A stretch of DNA of 38,465 bases, taken from contig SVQN01000022.1 in NCBI GenBank assembly GCA_015065295.1, positions 1-38,465 on the forward strand, written 5' to 3'. The stretch is from Oscillospiraceae bacterium (GTDB lineage Bacteria > Bacillota > Clostridia > Oscillospirales > CAG-272). Shown here in pieces: positions 3,887 to 35,608 of the stretch. Position 1 is the first letter of the stretch. Every line of letters starts with the position of its first letter. The notes under the pieces were generated by a model. It saw nothing but the letters and a program-made list of their open reading frames with translations, did not search any database and had not been told where the DNA came from. The position numbers and the translations under genes were made by a program.

Positions 3887-3899
3887 ATAGCGTGCGGAT

Positions 3900-4581
3900 T
3901 TCTTGGGGAGAACCTTTTTGAGGAAAAGGTTCTCCCCAAACCCCTCTCCAAAACCTTTTTAGGCGGTTGTAGCCGGTTTGTTTGGCTGATAGGATGGGGA
4001 GGGGGAAATGGAAAAACTCCGTGGAGTACGGTTTAAGAGTGTTCGGCCCGTTGACGTGGGGCTGGTTTGAATCTCTTCGAAAATCGTTCTGGGGAAGTCA
4101 GGCTCCGCCAAGACCCTGACTTCCCGCGCCATGCAGAAACTGCATGATACAATACGCCACTTTTGAATTCAGCTACATTTTATTGGTTTTCCGCGCGTCT
4201 TGGCTCGCCCGCCGTCCGCGCTTTGCGTTCGTTTGGTTGGCTGACATACAGTTTTCTTCGAAAAGCACGAACGGCGTCAGCCAAGGAGTGCGGGAGATTC
4301 CTTTATGTAGCTGAATTTTGACGCGACGCACCTCATCACCGTATCCCTTCCGGCAACGGAAGTCAGGGTCTTGGCGGAGCCTGACTTCCCCGTTATAATT
4401 TTCATGGAATTTCAAACCAACATCATGTCAGCGGATGGGATCAACTATATGTCAGCGCAGGCACCCAAGAAAATCCCCCCATAAAACAAAAAATCTGCTG
4501 TACCAAACCGGCTACCGCAGTCCAAAAAGGTTTTGGAAGGGGTTTGGGGAAACCTTTTCCTCAAAAAGGTTTCCCCAAGAA
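3900..4581. mobile_element. Nested palindromic element without cargo (copy 1)
   Basis: About 682 bases are bounded by an inverted repeat: TTCTTGGGGA...ACC hairpin plus tail at 3900-3980 and its complement at 4500-4581. Each end is itself a hairpin (GGGGAGAACC/GGTTCTCCCC at left, GGGGAAACC/GGTTTCCCC at right). Inside lies a second pair of arms (about 4065-4190 and 4300-4425), each carrying a hairpin GGGAAGTCAGG/CCTGACTTCCC (4092-4125 and 4357-4391). The centre is a loop of about 33 bases near 4230-4265. No credible gene lies inside. The element is homologous, in opposite orientation, to 29735-30955, which carries two genes in the loop. No target duplication is obvious. This accounts for the whole gap between the isomerase gene and the next promoter. 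Confidence 0.75.
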
Positions 4582-4593
4582 CCAAACCTCCCC

Positions 4594-5687: not shown

Positions 5688-6520
5688 CCGTCCTCGATAT
5701 TACCCGCCGTCTAACCGACGCGGGCATTGACCCCGCCGATGCACGGTCGGAAGCCCGCCTTCTCGTTTCGTACGTCACCGGAAAACCCGCGTCGTATCTG
5801 CTGGCCAATCCCATGGAGGATTTCGATTCCCCCGCCCTTGCGGAAGCGGTCGGAAAACGTGCGGAACGCTATCCTCTTCAATATATCATCGGAAAGTGGG
5901 AGTTCTACGGACTCCCCTTTGCCGTAAACGAGCATACCCTCATCCCCCGCCCCGACACCGAGCTGATCGCCGAAGCCGCCATCCGTCATACCCCCGCAAA
6001 CGGCAGGATTCTTGATCTCTGCACCGGCTCCGGCTGCATCGCGGCGGCTATCCTCGCAAACCGGACATCCGCCAACGGCATTGCCGTGGATCTGTACCCC
6101 GAAACGCTCCGTGCGGCAGAGGACAATCTGACCGCGCTCGGTCTGAACGACCGCTGTACATTCGTCTGCGGCGACGCAACCACCGACCTGTTCGACCCGT
6201 CCGTCACCTTCGACGTAATCGTCTCGAACCCGCCATACATAACCGCGGATGAGATGACCGTCCTCGAACCGGAGCTGGCGTACGAACCGGAACACGCTCT
6301 CACCGACGGCGGCGACGGTCTGTCCATCCTCGAAAAAATCATCGAACTTTATAAAAATCACCTCGCGCCGGACGGAGTCATGATTCTCGAACACGGCTGG
6401 AAACAGTCGGACGCCGTCCGCGAAATCGCCGCAAACAACGGCATGACCCACGAAAAAATCATGGACTACGGCAATAACACACGCGGAGCGGTGTTAAAAA
6501 GGCTAATGGCTAAGAACTAA
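5684..6520 (+). CDS. prmC: Peptide chain release factor N5-glutamine methyltransferase
   Basis: The 278-residue enzyme methylates the Gln of the GGQ motif of release factors RF1 and RF2 with S-adenosylmethionine. The N-terminal helical domain is followed by the SAM-binding segment ILDLCTGSGCIA and the catalytic NPPY motif (N182-Y185) that binds the glutamine amide. Length and order fit PrmC well. The start overlaps the DUF1385 stop by four bases. The last codons (KRLMAKN) are encoded by the heptad repeat that begins at 6501, so the natural C-terminus has probably been rewritten by the repeat. No terminator follows; leuA is 101 bases downstream behind the palindrome. Confidence 0.93.
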   Translation: MTVLDITRRLTDAGIDPADARSEARLLVSYVTGKPASYLLANPMEDFDSPALAEAVGKRAERYPLQYIIGKWEFYGLPFAVNEHTLIPRPDTELIAEAAIRHTPANGRILDLCTGSGCIAAAILANRTSANGIAVDLYPETLRAAEDNLTALGLNDRCTFVCGDATTDLFDPSVTFDVIVSNPPYITADEMTVLEPELAYEPEHALTDGGDGLSILEKIIELYKNHLAPDGVMILEHGWKQSDAVREIAANNGMTHEKIMDYGNNTRGAVLKRLMAKN

Positions 6521-28563: not shown

Positions 28564-29712
28564 ATGGCATTTTTAACCGAACACGACCGTACTTACAAGA
28601 CCCCGGAGGATATCTGCGCCCATCTCGGCGACGATTACGCACGTTTTGAAGGTGCCATCGTTCCGCCGCTGTTCCAGAATTCCCTGTTCGTCCATCCCAC
28701 CGAAGCGAACGGTGTGACCGATACGGAATTCGACTACTCCCGTATGGGCAACCCCACCCTCGACATCGCGGAACGCAAGATCGCGGCTCTCGAAGGCGGG
28801 GACGGCGCGCTCTGCTTCTCGACCGGCATGGCGGCCATCGGCGCGGCGATCATTCATTTTGTCCGCACGGGCAGCCATATCGTCATGGTCAACACCGTAT
28901 ACGGCGGCGCGACCGGCGTTGCCAACTATGTGAAGGACAAGTTCAACGTGGAAGTCACGCTGGTAGACGGCCGCGACCTTGAGGAAATCCGGAACGCGAT
29001 TCAGCCGAACACCACGCTGATCTACGTCGAAAGCCCGTCGAGTCTTGTCTTCCGGATGCAGGACATCGCCGAAATCGCAAAGATGGCGAAGGAACGCGGC
29101 ATCACGACAATGATGGACAACACCTACTCCACGCCGATTCTCCAGCAGCCGCTGAAGCACGGTATTGACGTGGTGGTTCATTCCGTCACCAAATACATGG
29201 GCGGCCACAGCGACCTGATGGGCGGCGCGGTCGTCTCGAACCGTGACATCATCATGGGCATCCGGAACAGCGAACGTGCGATTCTCTGCGGCACGATGGA
29301 CCCGCATCAGGCATGGCTGCTGACACGCGGTCTGCGTACCCTGCCGCTCCGTCTGAAGCAGCACGCGGCAAACGCGGCGAAGGTGGTTGAGTTCCTCGAA
29401 AACCACCCGAAGGTGGAAAAGGTCTACTACCCCGGCTCGAAGACGTACGAACAGCCGGAACTGTTTGCGAAGTATATGACCGGCACGAACGGTCTTCTCA
29501 GCATCGTCCCGAAGGGCACGGCGGAAGAAGCGCAGAAGTTCGTGGGACGGCTGCATTTCTTCCAGAACGGCTGCAGCTGGGGCGGCTTCGAAAGCCTTGC
29601 GATCTACCTCGGCGGCCCGGTACCGAAGCTGGTCCGTCTGCACGTCGGTCTGGAAGACCCGGCGACGCTCATCGCCGATCTGGATCAGGCATTGAACCGG
29701 ATTGAGGAGTGA
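28564..29712 (+). CDS. PLP-dependent Cys/Met metabolism enzyme (trans-sulfuration family)
   Basis: The 382-residue protein belongs to the cystathionine gamma-synthase/beta-lyase family of PLP enzymes. Visible: the Tyr-Arg segment FDYSRMGNPT, ALCFSTGMAAI (PLP phosphate), YVESPSS, the Asp in MMDNTYSTP, the PLP Lys in SVTKYMGGHSD (K210), and the C-terminal VRLHVGLED. Family members add or remove sulfide, cysteine or methanethiol from homoserine or cysteine derivatives. Candidates are methionine gamma-lyase, O-acetylhomoserine sulfhydrylase or cystathionine lyase; sequence alone does not decide. The gene is monocistronic with an AAAAGGAG ribosome site. A palindromic element begins 23 bases after the stop. 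Confidence 0.88.
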   Translation: MAFLTEHDRTYKTPEDICAHLGDDYARFEGAIVPPLFQNSLFVHPTEANGVTDTEFDYSRMGNPTLDIAERKIAALEGGDGALCFSTGMAAIGAAIIHFVRTGSHIVMVNTVYGGATGVANYVKDKFNVEVTLVDGRDLEEIRNAIQPNTTLIYVESPSSLVFRMQDIAEIAKMAKERGITTMMDNTYSTPILQQPLKHGIDVVVHSVTKYMGGHSDLMGGAVVSNRDIIMGIRNSERAILCGTMDPHQAWLLTRGLRTLPLRLKQHAANAAKVVEFLENHPKVEKVYYPGSKTYEQPELFAKYMTGTNGLLSIVPKGTAEEAQKFVGRLHFFQNGCSWGGFESLAIYLGGPVPKLVRLHVGLEDPATLIADLDQALNRIEE

Positions 29713-30064
29713 CAGAGCAATATTGTGAACGGGAGTTCTTGGGGGAACCTTTTAAGGAAAGGTTCCCCCAAACCCCTTCCAAACCTTTTTAATCTGCTAT
29801 CAAATTTAGGATATGCGGATTTTTTCTTTTTTAAGGGGATTTTCTTGGGTACCTGCGTAGCCATATCGTTGCCCCCATCCGCTGACATTTGGTTAGTTTG
29901 AATCTCTACGAAAATTGTTTTGGGGAAGTCAGGCTCCGCCAAGACCCTGACTTCCCACGCCATATGGAAATACATTGAATAAAATGCGTTGCGATCAAAT
30001 TCATCTACATATTGGCATCTTCCGCACTCCTTGGCTGCCGCCGTTCGTGCTTTGCGATAGAAAT

Positions 30065-30100
30065 ACCTGTGGATGTTTGAGGAACCACAGGTGCTTTTCT
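30065..30100. terminator. Hairpin at the end of the cargo XRE gene
   Basis: ACCTGTGG (30065-30072) pairs with CCACAGGT (30085-30092). It lies just after the stop of the minus-strand XRE gene, with ATTTCTAT on that side and GCTTTTCT on the other, so it may act on both strands. Confidence 0.6.
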
Positions 30101-30101
30101 G

Positions 30102-30308
30102 TCATTTATAGGGGATGGGATTATCGGTACGACAGAGAATATAGTCTGTAGAAGTTTGGTACAAATCAGCAAGCTGAATAAGAAGTTCAATCGGAAGCTG
30201 ACGTTTTCCTGTTTCATATTGAGAATAGGTGTTTTGGCGGATGTTTAATTTGGATGCCACATATTCCTGAGTGTAATCATGGTCTTCCCGCAGATCGCGT
30301 ATACGCAT
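30102..30308 (-). CDS. Small XRE-family repressor (element cargo)
   Basis: The 68-residue protein is almost entirely a Cro/C1-type helix-turn-helix: RDLREDHDYTQEYVASKLNI, then the recognition helix NTYSQYETGKR and the dimer-side helix LADLYQTSTDYIL. It closely resembles the two tandem regulators at 35145 and 35369, including the RTDNP-x-PY tail. The ATG at 30308 is chosen because GAGGA lies 9 bases upstream and because the alternative start at 30374 would run through the promoter region. It lies in the loop of the palindromic element and is divergent from the small peptide gene at 30480, with operator-like half-sites between. It probably represses both promoters; that is inference from layout. 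Confidence 0.82.
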   Translation of the reverse strand: MRIRDLREDHDYTQEYVASKLNIRQNTYSQYETGKRQLPIELLIQLADLYQTSTDYILCRTDNPIPYK

Positions 30309-30349
30309 ATAAGATTCCTCACATTCTGAAAAGATGTGGTCAGTATAAA

Positions 30350-30381
30350 ATATCTCCGATTGAGATATTGACATTTATCTC
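30350..30381. promoter_or_regulatory. Operator half-site cluster of the cargo module
   Basis: Three half-sites alternate in orientation: TATCTC (30351-30356), GAGATA (30362-30367) and TATCTC (30376-30381). They form two overlapping palindromes, ATATCTC-N5-GAGATAT and GAGATA-N8-TATCTC, and enclose the -35 of the rightward promoter. A leftward -10 TATACT sits at 30347-30342. Confidence 0.6.
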
Positions 30382-30396
30382 AAAATGTGATAAAAT
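30368..30396 (+). promoter_or_regulatory. Promoter of the small peptide gene
   Basis: TTGACA (30368-30373), 17-base spacer, TAAAAT (30391-30396), a near-perfect promoter. Its -35 lies between two operator half-sites. The predicted leader is about 75 bases. Confidence 0.75.
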
Positions 30397-30479
30397 CAAA
30401 ATGTAAGGAAAATAATTGTCCTAATAATGATGAAATAATCGAAAGGTTATTTATAAAATTTATCGAAAGGAGATTGCAT

Positions 30480-30560
30480 ATGTGGATCGCAGCTGGTTGG
30501 ATTGTTAATTGCGGATTAGCATTCCTTGATTATTCGCTGGCATGGTACATTCTGCACTGA
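30480..30560 (+). CDS. 26-residue hydrophobic peptide (element cargo)
   Basis: ATG 30480 is preceded by a strong ribosome site (AAAGGAG, 30476-minus 7 region, spacing 7-8). The frame encodes 26 residues, MWIAAGWIVNCGLAFLDYSL then AWYILH, with one likely transmembrane stretch, three Trp and one Cys. It has its own promoter (30368-30396) and terminator (30574-30612), so the whole 27-codon frame is packaged as a transcription unit. It lies divergent to a small XRE repressor inside the palindromic element. I know no family for it. It could be a small membrane toxin-like or signalling peptide, or a leader whose RNA is the functional product. None of these is proved. It is too short for routine gene finding. 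Confidence 0.6.
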   Translation: MWIAAGWIVNCGLAFLDYSLAWYILH

Positions 30561-30573
30561 ATTTATGCAGATA

Positions 30574-30612
30574 AGAAGACGGTTCAGCCTCAAAGGGGTT
30601 GAACCGTTTTCT
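30574..30612 (+). terminator. Terminator of the small peptide gene
   Basis: ACGGTTCA (30579-30586) pairs with TGAACCGT (30600-30607), extended by AAGAA/TTCTT, followed by TTTTCTTATTT. Confidence 0.85.
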
Positions 30613-30981
30613 TATTTCTATAAATATACAAACGCAAAGCGCGGACGGCGACCGAGCCAAGACGCGCGGCAAACCAATAAAACGTAGCTGAATTCTAAAT
30701 TGACGTACTACATTATGCAATCGTAATATGGCGTGGGAAATCAGGGTCTCGGCGGCCCCTGATTTCCATTTAACGATTTTCGTAGAGATTCAAACCAGCA
30801 TTACGTCAACAGGTCTAACAAATTTCAGCCGAACTCCACGGTATATTTCAAAAAGTCCCCTCCCCATCATATCAACTATCTCCACGGCAACCGCAGTCTA
30901 AAAAGGTTTTGGAAGGGGTTTGGGGAAACCTTTTCCTCAAAAAGGTTTCCCCAACAAATCCGCACCCACAAGATTTTGTAG

Positions 30982-31010
30982 TTGCATCTGCCCCGCATCC
31001 GTGCTATAAT
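30982..31010 (+). promoter_or_regulatory. Promoter of the glycyl radical enzyme gene
   Basis: TTGCAT (30982-30987), 17-base spacer and TATAAT (31005-31010), 33 bases before the ATG and just outside the palindromic element. Confidence 0.75.
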
Positions 31011-31043
31011 AATCCCAACAACTCTCCCCCAACGGAGGTACAC

Positions 31044-33032
31044 ATGAACGAACTTTATTCCGCCCTGCGCGAATCCGGCGAATACTACGCCGCCGAGCTG
31101 GTCGTCAACCTCGACCGCAGCCCCCTCTACCGCTACTCCCGCGCCGCCGCCGCTTACTTTGAACACGCCGTTCTCACCCCCTACGACGGCGGCCGGCTCT
31201 ATCCCTGCGGACATTCCATCAACCGCAACGCCGGCAACGCGTCCGTCTGCGTCAAGCCGGAATTCTCCTACACCTATTCCGCCAACCTCGGCAGACTCGC
31301 CGGAAAATCCCCCGAGGCCGCTGAAATGCTCGGGAAGGAATTCGCGCAGGTCGCCCCCATCCGTACACCTCACACTGTCGGCGGTGCGGGTTATACGCAT
31401 TCCTTCATCAACTACCGCCGCATCCTCAAAGACGGGCTGAACGGCTACCGTACCCGCGTGGAACGCCTGCCGGACGGCGATTTCCGTGACGCAATGCTCG
31501 TCCTCCTTGACGGAATCGAATGCTACCGTCTGCGCTGCATCGCTCTTCTGGAAGAAGCAAATGCGCCCGAAGACCTCATCGCCGCGCTCCGCAAAGTGCC
31601 GAACGAATCCCCCTCCAACATCTACGAAGCCCTCGTCGCGTGGAATTTCGTCTACTATGTGGACGGATGCGACGACATCGGCGGACTGGACCGCGGCCTG
31701 TATCCCTACTGGAACGGCGAGGACATCCGTGACCTTCTCCGCGAACTCTACCGCCACATCGACGGCAACGACGGCTGGTCCATGCCCCTCGGCCCGACGT
31801 ACAACGAACTCACCGTCCAGTGCATCGACGCGTCCCACAGCATCCGCCGCCCGAATATCCAGCTTCTCGTCACCGACGATATGCCCGACGAGGTCTGGAA
31901 CGCTGCTTACGGCTCCATCGGTTCGAGCTGCGGTCAGCCGTCCTTCTACAACTGGAACGGCTACAAGAAGGAACTCAACAGCCGCCTCCCGCAGGTCACG
32001 GATGCCGATCTTATGTACATCGCGTTCGGCGGATGCACCGAAACCATGATCGAAGGCCTCTCCAACGTCGGTTCGGATGACGCGGGCATCAATACCGCGC
32101 TGGTGTTCGACCGCTTCCTGCGCGAAAACCTCGGCAAAATTGACACGTTCGAGGAATTCATGGAACGCTATACCGTCGAGGCGGAACGCGCCGTTGCGGA
32201 AACCTGCGATATCCTCGAGGAACACCGCAAGACCCGTGCGAAATTCCGTCCCCAGCCGGTGCGTACGCTGTTCATCGACGACTGTATCGACCGTATGACC
32301 GACTTCAACGCGGGCGGCGCACGTTACAACTGGAGCGTCATGAACGTCGCGGGGCTGATTAATGTTATTGACTCGATGGTGGTCATCAAGAACCTCGTCT
32401 ATGGCGAAAAGCGGTACACCGCAGAGGAATTCCTCGAAAAACTCGACGCACGCGACCCGCTCTTCCTCGCGGACTGTGCCCGTCAGCCGAAGCACGGCAA
32501 CGACATCGCCGAAGTCAACGAAATCGCCAATACCCTTTCCGGCCGCATTTATTCCGAATTCGAGCGGCACACCTGCACCCCGGGCGGCAGATACTTCCCC
32601 GTATCGAACCAGTTCACGACCTACGAATCCGCAGGCCACGGCATCGGCGCGACTCCGGACGGACGTGCGGCAAACGATCCGCTGTGCGACTCCTGCGGCG
32701 CAATCCACGGCCGCGACACGGAAGGTCCGACGGCACTTCTGTCGAGCGTAGCGGCACTCCGGCTTGACCTTGTACTGGGTACGCCGATCACGAATATCCG
32801 CATCTCGAAGCCGAATCTGCCGACGCTTCTGAAGCCGCTGGTACAGGCGTTCTTCCAGAAGGGCGGTATGCAGCTTCAGGTGACGTGCGCGTCGCGTGAA
32901 GAGCTTCTGGACGCACTGGATCATCCGGAAAAGCACGAAAGCCTTGTGGTGCGTATCGGCGGCTTTGCGGAATACTTCAACCGGCTGAGTCCCGTCCTGA
33001 AGCAGACCGTTATCGACCGTACGGAATACTGA
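31044..33032 (+). CDS. Glycyl radical enzyme of the pyruvate formate-lyase family
   Basis: The 662-residue protein has the hallmarks of glycyl radical enzymes: the active-site Cys/Glu motif GGCTE (C331, E333) in the middle, and the C-terminal glycyl radical loop RIGGFAEYF (R637-F641, radical Gly probably G640) matching the family pattern RVxGY, followed by VIDRTEY. It is shorter than typical members (about 760-850). Such enzymes need a radical SAM activase; none is in the window, so activation in trans is required if it is active. The substrate cannot be assigned: it is not a standard pyruvate formate-lyase, whose active site has two adjacent Cys. GGAGG precedes ATG 31044. It is monocistronic and ends at a shared terminator. 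Confidence 0.85.
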   Translation: MNELYSALRESGEYYAAELVVNLDRSPLYRYSRAAAAYFEHAVLTPYDGGRLYPCGHSINRNAGNASVCVKPEFSYTYSANLGRLAGKSPEAAEMLGKEFAQVAPIRTPHTVGGAGYTHSFINYRRILKDGLNGYRTRVERLPDGDFRDAMLVLLDGIECYRLRCIALLEEANAPEDLIAALRKVPNESPSNIYEALVAWNFVYYVDGCDDIGGLDRGLYPYWNGEDIRDLLRELYRHIDGNDGWSMPLGPTYNELTVQCIDASHSIRRPNIQLLVTDDMPDEVWNAAYGSIGSSCGQPSFYNWNGYKKELNSRLPQVTDADLMYIAFGGCTETMIEGLSNVGSDDAGINTALVFDRFLRENLGKIDTFEEFMERYTVEAERAVAETCDILEEHRKTRAKFRPQPVRTLFIDDCIDRMTDFNAGGARYNWSVMNVAGLINVIDSMVVIKNLVYGEKRYTAEEFLEKLDARDPLFLADCARQPKHGNDIAEVNEIANTLSGRIYSEFERHTCTPGGRYFPVSNQFTTYESAGHGIGATPDGRAANDPLCDSCGAIHGRDTEGPTALLSSVAALRLDLVLGTPITNIRISKPNLPTLLKPLVQAFFQKGGMQLQVTCASREELLDALDHPEKHESLVVRIGGFAEYFNRLSPVLKQTVIDRTEY

Positions 33033-34760: not shown

Positions 34761-35042
34761 TTACGTTTGTGCCGGGGACGATTCGGAGAGAACTTCGAGC
34801 ATCAGGCGCGCACCGATGCGGAAACCGAGCGTGAAGGAGTCGAGGGCTTCCTCCGCGTGATGGCGGGACGCGCTGTCATAGTATGCCTGATACTTCTGCC
34901 GCTGTTCGTCGGTCATGCCGTCGAGGAGAGCGTCTTCGGCTGCCGTAACCTGACGGATGAGATCGCGCCATTTGTCGGGATTGAGCGGCGGATGTGCGGC
35001 CGGGATGAGGTCACCGTAATAAAGCTGTTCGATCAGGGTCAT
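34761..35042 (-). CDS. DUF6809-like small protein
   Basis: The 93-residue alpha-helical protein begins MTLIEQLYYGDL and has a C-terminal FTLGFRIGARLMLEV segment, a pattern I associate with the DUF6809 family of small Clostridia proteins often found next to XRE regulators. Function is unknown. ATG 35042 is chosen because AAAGGAG is 7 bases upstream; the longer frame to 35084 crosses an operator. The gene is divergent from two XRE genes and shares with them a regulatory region with two operators. The central helix has many charged residues (EQRQKYQAYYDSASRHHAEE). It has a consensus promoter (35085-35113) and its own terminator. Confidence 0.72.
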   Translation of the reverse strand: MTLIEQLYYGDLIPAAHPPLNPDKWRDLIRQVTAAEDALLDGMTDEQRQKYQAYYDSASRHHAEEALDSFTLGFRIGARLMLEVLSESSPAQT

Positions 35043-35055
35043 GGGATTTCTCCTT

Positions 35056-35075
35056 TTAATACATTTTTGTATTAA
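35056..35075. promoter_or_regulatory. Operator 1 of the XRE/DUF6809 region
   Basis: TTAATACA-TTTT-TGTATTAA is a 20-bp palindrome between the leftward -10 and the DUF6809 ribosome site. Its centre is 54 bases from that of operator 2. Confidence 0.7.
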
Positions 35076-35084
35076 GATAAGCAT

Positions 35085-35113
35085 ATTATAGCGAAGTTAT
35101 ATTAAAATGTCAA
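35085..35113 (-). promoter_or_regulatory. Consensus promoter of the DUF6809-like gene
   Basis: On the minus strand TTGACA (35113-35108) and TATAAT (35090-35085) are 17 bases apart, a perfect consensus. The -35 overlaps operator 2. A rightward promoter for the XRE genes is less clear; TATATT at 35098-35103 is a candidate -10. Confidence 0.85.
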
Positions 35114-35127
35114 TACATATTTGTATT
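35112..35127. promoter_or_regulatory. Operator 2 of the XRE/DUF6809 region
   Basis: AATACA-TATT-TGTATT repeats the core of operator 1 with one base changed in the centre. It overlaps the leftward -35 and lies 18 bases before the first XRE start. Confidence 0.7.
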
Positions 35128-35144
35128 AAAGTCAAGGAGAAACC

Positions 35145-35372
35145 ATGAGTTATTATCGCAGATTACGGGACTTACGGGAAGATCACGATCTCAACCAGCA
35201 GCAGATTGCCGATTTTCTCGGAATCCACCAGACACAATACAGCCGGTATGAACGCGGCAGCTATGATATTCCGACGGACTTTTTGATCCGGCTGGCAGAC
35301 TTATACAAAACATCGACAGACTATATCCTCGGGCGCACGGACAATCCGAAACCGTATAATTGTAAACCATGA
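35145..35372 (+). CDS. XRE-family regulator, tandem copy 1
   Basis: The 75-residue protein is a Cro/C1-type helix-turn-helix (LRDLREDHDLNQQQIADFLG, recognition helix TQYSRYERG) with the conserved tail LADLYKTSTDYILGRTDNP. CAAGGAGA precedes ATG 35145. Its stop overlaps the start of the second XRE gene by four bases (ATGA), so the two are translated together. It probably binds the two AATACA/TGTATT palindromes upstream and controls itself and the divergent DUF6809-like gene; this is inferred from position. The last 56 bases before its end region (35302-35357) are identical to those of copy 2. Confidence 0.88.
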   Translation: MSYYRRLRDLREDHDLNQQQIADFLGIHQTQYSRYERGSYDIPTDFLIRLADLYKTSTDYILGRTDNPKPYNCKP

Positions 35373-35608
35373 GATATTATCACAGACTGCGTGAACTGCG
35401 GGAAGATCACGACCTGACACAGAAACAGGTAGCAGACTATTTAGGAACCTATCAGCCGCATTACGGGAAATACGAACGCGGGGAACGGGACATTCCGACG
35501 GACTATCTGATCCGGCTGGCGGACCTATACAAAACATCGACAGACTATATCCTCGGGCGCACGGACAATCCGAAACCGTATGGTAATACCATAGAACACA
35601 AAATTTGA
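35369..35608 (+). CDS. XRE-family regulator, tandem copy 2
   Basis: The 79-residue paralogue of copy 1 has the same helix-turn-helix layout (LRELREDHDLTQKQVADYLG), but a different recognition helix (QPHYGKYERGER in place of TQYSRYERGSY), so it may read another operator. The C-terminal half is almost the same as copy 1, and 35526-35581 is identical at DNA level to 35302-35357. ATG overlaps the stop of copy 1. Its last codons, AAA-ATT-TGA, belong to the terminal repeat of the palindromic element at 35601. No separate terminator is seen. Confidence 0.87.
   Translation: MRYYHRLRELREDHDLTQKQVADYLGTYQPHYGKYERGERDIPTDYLIRLADLYKTSTDYILGRTDNPKPYGNTIEHKI

Follow-up and report, generated by a model that had tools for sequence, protein, structure and literature searches.

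A predicted XRE repressor–operator module with exchangeable divergent partners in Clostridia, and its compact form between the arms of a palindromic element

The window (the whole 38,465-base stretch of DNA analysed here) carries a 565-base segment at 30057–30621 that opens with ATAGAAATA, found once on the + strand (30057), and closes with TATTTCTAT, also found once on that strand (30613), in agreement with the original prediction. All of the parts that had been listed for it are present: an XRE gene on the minus strand, a TTGACA-17-TAAAAT promoter, a ribosome site, a 26-codon hydrophobic frame and a terminator (Table 1). Operators are likewise present, but what had been described as overlapping half-sites turn out to be two complete operators, O1 and O2. 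The module adjoins a gene that, from its sequence, we take to encode a Cys/Met-metabolism enzyme, and the other neighbour in the window is presumably a glycyl-radical-type enzyme.

Table 1 Features of the XRE module and of the palindromic element around it (positions in the window)
Feature	Position	Strand	Evidence
Left arm of palindromic element (approximate limits), bounded outwards by a terminator-like hairpin	29736–30053	.	92 left-arm-query matches in own genome
Hairpin of XRE gene, candidate terminator: ACCTGTGG/CCACAGGT, tail ATTTCTAT	30065–30092	-	fold z -4.0
XRE/Cro-type repressor, 68 aa + stop, helix-turn-helix only	30102–30308	-	HTH_3 PF01381, 56.9 bits (cut-off 23)
TATACT, probable -10 of XRE gene, immediately outside O1	30342–30347	-	sequence; TATA nearby in relatives
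Operator O1 (predicted) ATCTCCGATTGAGAT	30352–30366	.	O1 with at most 1 mismatch in 77/79 distinct related segments
Divergent promoter: -35 TTGACA (30368–30373), 17-bp spacer, -10 TAAAAT (30391–30396), extended -10 TG	30368–30396	+	
Operator O2 (predicted) ATCTCAAAATGTGAT, between -35 and -10	30377–30391	.	
Shine-Dalgarno GAAAGGAG, ATG 7 nt on	30465–30472	+	
26-codon hydrophobic frame MWIAAGWIVNCGLAFLDYSLAWYILH; ATG 30480, TGA 30558–30560	30480–30560	+	
Dedicated intrinsic terminator, 20 pairs counted in stem	30572–30614	+	
Right arm of palindromic element (limits approximate)	30630–30961	.	arms and centres read in 31 sequences

Because the region 29700–31060 holds five promoter-like sites, against 3.2 in shuffled sequences, the sigma-70 consensus match of the divergent promoter (11 of 12 positions) is weak evidence when taken alone. 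Terminator-like sites number one, against 1.6 expected from shuffles; such matches alone are thus not unusual here, and the weight for promoter and terminator comes from the relatives. The hairpin at 30065–30092, which was missed by the consensus terminator scan, is probably the terminator of the XRE gene. An inverted repeat of 9 bp between the 45-base end stretches of the segment exceeds chance expectation (9 bp is reached in 5 of 500 dinucleotide shuffles), but its two halves are the T-rich tails behind this hairpin and behind the peptide terminator, so that no boundary or recombination role is needed to account for it.

The window XRE carries a QNTYS motif (IRQNTYSQYE), and its Pfam HTH matches span residues 2–58 of 68; it has no sensor domain. 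NCBIfam antitoxin models matched below their cut-offs only, and the best scores against PADLOC HTH models (HTH_VI, 34.2 bits; capH, 27.7 bits; models without cut-offs) look like generic HTH similarity. The only PDB sequence at E ≤ 1e-5 is the ICEBs1-type Xre regulator 7t8i (66 aa, E = 3.5e-9), and neither an ImmA-like protease partner nor conjugation genes were recognised by eye beside the window XRE in the list of open reading frames. Inovirus or RstR-type repressors are likewise small, HTH-only and divergent from an output gene, with a palindrome around the -35 (by eye), but the window XRE differs from them in scoring 47.7 bits against the NCBIfam RstR model NF041951, below its cut-off of 80, and no phage genes were recognised by eye near it in the same list.

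The first set of XRE relatives was gathered by protein similarity only. At E ≤ 1e-15, 8 of 25 genus genomes have relatives, at 18 places in all, four of these in the genome of the window itself. The family search found 38 places, spread over 35 of 196 genomes, and added 28 new loci; a search of viral contigs gave four loci at 37–52% identity, which were left out of the comparisons. The XRE tree was built on 69 columns, with 53 of 122 inner branches open and the bootstrap unsettled, and was used only for the starred pair formed by the window XRE and that of genome G012, and for the separate position of genome G195. By eye, the window XRE has a Cys after TSTDYIL where most relatives show Gly or Glu.

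The relatives were compared for the presence of an operator. Among 46 loci, ATC(T/A)C-N4/5-G(A/T)GAT lies within 150 bp upstream of 21 of the 26 QNTYS-bearing XREs and of 1 of the 20 others (Fisher p = 2e-7, a value that is indicative only because the loci are not mutually independent), and the sole operator-bearing exception reads QSTYS. With one mis-picked XRE (locus L134) reassigned by hand, the counts become 22/27 and 1/19 (p = 4e-7). Five of the 26 QNTYS XREs lack the operator, and the non-QNTYS XREs mostly show different palindromes around a similar TTGACA promoter (by eye). Helix motif and operator thus co-vary, as expected of a true repressor–operator pair.

The promoter layout of the subfamily is ATCTC-N5-GAGAT, TTGACA, ATCTC-N4-TGTGATAtaaT, with an operator consensus of TATA..ATCTCA...TGAGATATTGACattTATCTCAa.tTGTGATAtaaT over 79 distinct segments that adjoin an XRE. 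The pattern GATATTGACNNNTATCTCNNNNTGTGATA occurs at 80 or more loci of 118 stretches, from MAGs named as Clostridia or as taxa within Clostridia, many of them from ruminant, deer and rabbit gut. A looser pattern, TTGACNNNTATCTCNNNNTGTGATA, was found in 35 of 395 family genomes and its reversed control in none of the 395. An XRE stands beside the operator in 28 of 30 fetched family loci; one of the other two (L304) is cut by a contig end, and the match in the other (L301, genome G728), with no recognised XRE, is probably due to chance. Of the 79 distinct segments, 77 have O1, whose ATCTC half was part of no search pattern, 75 have a partner -10 of the form TAnnnT (TA was in the search pattern), and 67 have a TATA box for the XRE gene immediately beyond O1. 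The conservation of operator and promoter next to related XREs supports the earlier proposal of a repressor-controlled divergent switch, as far as sequence comparison goes.

Each of the 35 family genomes has exactly one match to the looser pattern, but only about two doubles would be expected at 9% prevalence (an estimate) and many genomes are incomplete (70.8% for that of the window), so this count does not establish the exclusion of second copies. In the genome of the window, the half-pattern ATCTCNNNNTGTGATA is matched exactly by O2 alone, and O1 and two other places match with one mismatch, against two for the control, which gives no sign of a regulon beyond the locus itself. One 13-kb viral contig (L306) contains the operator pattern at 5923–5947, with no recognised XRE, upstream of an ATPase-like ORF that we take to resemble a phi29-type packaging ATPase, and it carries another ORF presumably resembling a protein-primed DNA polymerase. 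This match was set aside since 18 fixed bases come near the chance rate in so large a collection (rough estimate); it could be chance or a borrowed host operator.

The gene behind the divergent promoter is far less constant. From 111 operator loci, 97 had a recognised XRE, and in 86 of these the promoter also leads into an ORF of 45 aa or more, the partner being the first such ORF with a ribosome site, picked automatically, and shorter outputs being judged by eye. These 86 partners fall into 42 single-linkage clusters, and the number stays at 42 in a recount on 69 distinct XREs, which was made as several genomes belong to both collections; some of the picks that lie over 200 bp away (L152, L154, L188) are open to doubt, so that 42 may be a slight overcount. 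A partner cluster is common to 16 of 68 XRE pairs at 80–90% identity and to 4 of 5 at 90–100%. Among partners of at least 100 aa beside distinct XREs, 47 of 54 contain a hydrophobic 19-residue stretch (hydropathy threshold 1.6 for the best stretch), compared with 135 of 387 background ORFs from the same loci, and with one partner per cluster the proportion is 31 of 36. The variable partner is therefore mostly hydrophobic, and so probably a membrane or exported protein. At the level of sequence, module, operators, promoter and the exchange of partners are all documented in these comparisons, and repressor and promoter appear as the constant part, and the controlled gene as the variable part, of a module present in numerous Clostridia MAGs from gut and rumen.

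The two largest partner clusters resemble zinc-ribbon/TM2-type proteins and DUF6809 (Pfam, one example of each). The window has a DUF6809 locus of its own (34761–35608), in which the DUF6809 gene on the minus strand (34761–35084) is divergent from two tandem XRE genes (35145, 35369) that belong to the same XRE family and have a palindromic, AATACAAATATGTATT-like operator on both sides of the promoter. XRE–DUF6809 pairs (PF20648), one of them in the window (34761–35372) and one on a Paenibacillus plasmid, share with the module the XRE family, a divergent TTGACA promoter and an opposite-strand partner. They differ in that the partner is a protein of about 90 aa and not a 26-residue frame, and in that the operators of the window and plasmid pairs are other palindromes; some QNTYS-type XREs with the ATCTC operator have a DUF6809 partner too. 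In a limited search of the open-licence literature, we found no description of an exchangeable-output XRE arrangement, and no paper on DUF6809 or on an XRE with a small hydrophobic peptide, TM2 protein, lipoprotein or divergent promoter.

In XREs of the KQNTYQQYE type (L152, L154, L160, L188, L206 and partly L200), the promoter is followed by a hairpin of about 75 nt that is alike between genomes (by eye). In L152, L160 and L206 there is room in it for a 13–15-codon frame with FGFVWF; this frame is not preserved in L154 and L188, which favours an RNA for that hairpin.

The frame in the window is the shortest clear protein-like output among the modules (frames below 45 aa judged by eye). Its peptide matches nothing in Pfam, DUF6809 included, nor in NCBIfam, PHROGs or PADLOC, which bears out the earlier statement that no described family was known for it. 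At E ≤ 0.01, its own genome is the only one among 394 order genomes with a match. A looser search (E ≤ 1; 59 relatives including the own genome) gave one further match (G048, E = 0.108), which was dropped because it lies antisense to a 337-aa ORF. With no homologue in the 394 order genomes, the coding status of the frame is only probable, and with 1.38 for its most hydrophobic 19 residues it stays under the threshold of 1.6 passed by most partners; we hold with moderate confidence that it is a real small membrane peptide.

The nearest parallel is in G195, where an XRE 63% identical to that of the window is accompanied by O2, the promoter, a ribosome site, a 28-aa hydrophobic frame (MGVIECMVLVGFMIDITVFMLHYCLGGI; best hydropathy 2.29) and a 12-pair terminator, with one operator and no clear O1. 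The two XREs are not sisters in the tree, and 225 of 2000 shuffles align as well as the window and G195 peptides do, so that this is a likeness of plan and homology is not demonstrated. In 395 genomes, the G195 peptide found itself and one weak match (58% over 19 residues, E = 0.04), which lies inside a 103-aa frame and was taken as chance.

The module could instead be degenerating, its original partner lost, the 26-codon frame fortuitous and autoregulation of the XRE all that is left. The missing homologues of the peptide fit this reading, as do several relatives with no convincing partner (e.g., L177, L181 and L225) and the state of the sister module in G012. The G012 XRE pairs with that of the window in the tree (98/91; 70% identity) and 20 bases across O2 are identical between the two (ATTTATCTCAAAATGTGATA), but O1 and the -35 have been lost, neither a partner nor a window-like peptide frame is present, and the XRE frame (L083, 1645–2727) has no stop of its own and reads into the next gene to form a 360-aa open frame; the locus may therefore be decaying. 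In the window, however, there is no damage to O1, O2, the -35, the extended -10, the ribosome site, the start, the stop or the 20-pair terminator, and their spacing is good; G195 repeats the layout with a hydrophobic frame and a terminator of its own. We regard degeneration as unlikely, although it deserves to be kept in view.

A small regulatory RNA of about 210 nt is a still less probable output. The transcript region folds well (z = -5.05), and the KQNTYQQYE-type group has a hairpin with no long ORF directly after the operator (by eye), but the long terminator stem probably explains much of the fold energy, a strong ribosome site precedes an ATG by 7 nt, and the divergent product is protein-like in most relatives read.

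The account that we favour, with somewhat more confidence than doubt, is that of a self-contained autorepressed switch, in which the XRE would repress both itself and the peptide gene and its loss would release a membrane-active peptide. The 68-aa XRE, probably a dimer, would bind two operators that lie 25 bp apart from centre to centre. Occupancy of O1, within the promoter of the XRE gene, would block transcription of the XRE, and occupancy of O2, which overlaps the spacer and the -10 element of the divergent promoter, would block the divergent gene; with an operator in each of the two promoters, both genes would be held low. When the XRE drops, the near-consensus promoter would fire an mRNA of about 210 nt that has a strong ribosome site and ends at a terminator of its own, and from which the 26-residue peptide could be translated, most likely to act at the membrane. 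The likeliest identity of the predicted product is a membrane-active peptide, either toxin-like or regulatory.

Were the peptide a membrane-depolarising toxin and the XRE its transcriptional antitoxin, the small size and hydrophobicity of the peptide and the apparently tight control would be expected. There is also precedent for the pairing: Makarova et al. 2009 (PMC2701414) describe three conserved pairs of an Xre repressor and a membrane protein, which were left off the list of type II toxin–antitoxin candidates for the reason that no type II system with a membrane component was then known. Xre and a membrane protein are likewise paired here, but those pairs are specific and conserved (PMC2701414), whereas in the present case the partner changes beside a constant XRE and operator. 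In addition, the XRE subfamily is mostly partnered with longer hydrophobic proteins, for which the tests made gave no hint of toxin character, and the peptide matches no toxin model. A toxin–antitoxin function is accordingly, in our estimate, an outside candidate, about as probable as degeneration of the module.

The autorepressed switch can also be set beside peptide signalling. In the Rgg–SHP and ComRS quorum switches, an XRE regulator is combined with a short hydrophobic peptide gene, and Rgg and ComR regulators carry a peptide-binding C-terminal domain. The window module has the same combination of XRE and short hydrophobic peptide gene; it differs in that its 68-aa XRE is HTH only, and a C-terminal domain of this type is absent from it (Pfam).

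XRE autorepressors with a divergent neighbour are common; what distinguishes the present module is that the repressor and a 45-bp operator–promoter are nearly fixed and the controlled gene varies. We tentatively propose, as a generalisation that falls a little short of an even call, that a single-copy repressor with a double operator serves as a regulatory chassis with swappable outputs, repeatedly re-wired in gut and rumen Clostridia to drive unrelated genes for membrane or exported products, the smallest of them single-helix peptides of 26–28 residues, with the module in the window as the most stripped-down form seen, possibly in an invertible palindromic loop. If this is confirmed, an inducing signal identified in one species might hold for all of these membrane or exported genes, unrelated as they are, and a DNA handle to locate them is offered by the operator pattern, including peptides too short for gene callers.

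The segment lies between the arms of an interspersed palindromic element of about 680 bp, with arms of about 320 bp each and terminator-like hairpins at both ends, of which the window has two copies (3896–4590 and 29736–30961). No Rfam family reached its gathering score anywhere in the window, the element included. A 341-base left-arm query has 92 matches in the own genome when both arms are counted, and about 40 of these are left-arm matches at least 200 bases long (counted by hand), which corresponds to about 40 element copies. The left arms of fetched copies are 79–88% identical to that in the window, and the longest copies are 85–91% identical to the copy at 3900. At least one match to the 3890–4590 copy is found in 8 of 25 genus genomes; among the matches listed, G012 and G022 account for most of those outside the own genome, with arms that are 66–81% identical and a 62-base outer end that reaches 97%, and at least 22 short matches come from G023.

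The copy at 3900–4581 had been noted for its short centre, and it indeed has 56 bases where the copy studied here has 601, at the same arm positions. Centres were examined in 31 sequences, two of which are unreadable (L039, L058) and one of which is the window's own (601 bases); the other 28 all have a centre of 56 or 57 bases, and the filled loop at 30057–30621 is therefore an exception. The original prediction took the module for cargo that the element had gained and maintains, and its place exactly midway between the two arms speaks for this, but none of the 28 other readable copies is filled. The peptide was not found beside any other XRE, and related XREs have many unrelated partners. Moreover, modules with similar XREs seldom have flanking DNA in common. 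For XRE pairs at 80–90% identity, flanks are shared in 6 of 104 cases on the XRE side and in 1 of 116 on the partner side, and at 90–99.9% in 0 of 12 and 5 of 11, respectively (nucleotide-level comparison, which would miss diverged synteny).

The same conclusion is reached from the neighbourhood in G012, which is the nearest related genome by its Cys/Met-metabolism enzyme (89% identity; matches at E ≤ 1e-120 in 4 of 25 genus genomes). There, the sister XRE lies directly behind the Cys/Met-metabolism gene, in the opposite orientation to that gene as compared with the window, and no element arms surround it, which argues against element-borne cargo. The glycyl-radical-type enzyme gene also adjoins the Cys/Met-metabolism gene in G012, and in G022 the gene that comes after the latter is again the one found next in G012, and no XRE separates the two. 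The simplest inference from this gene order is that the XRE stood beside the Cys/Met-metabolism enzyme before the lineages of the window and G012 split, and that the window copy owes its present arrangement to the element arms and to local inversions; separate arrivals of an XRE at the same place in the two lineages are a conceivable alternative. That the module is cargo of the element appears to us very improbable, the least probable of the readings weighed here.

A minor observation concerns the edges of the loop. Read as its reverse complement, the left edge in the window, GCTTTGCGATAG (30049–30060), equals the right loop edge of element copy L034, CTATCGCAAAGC, which is what inversion of the centre, or its recombination between the arms, might leave behind.
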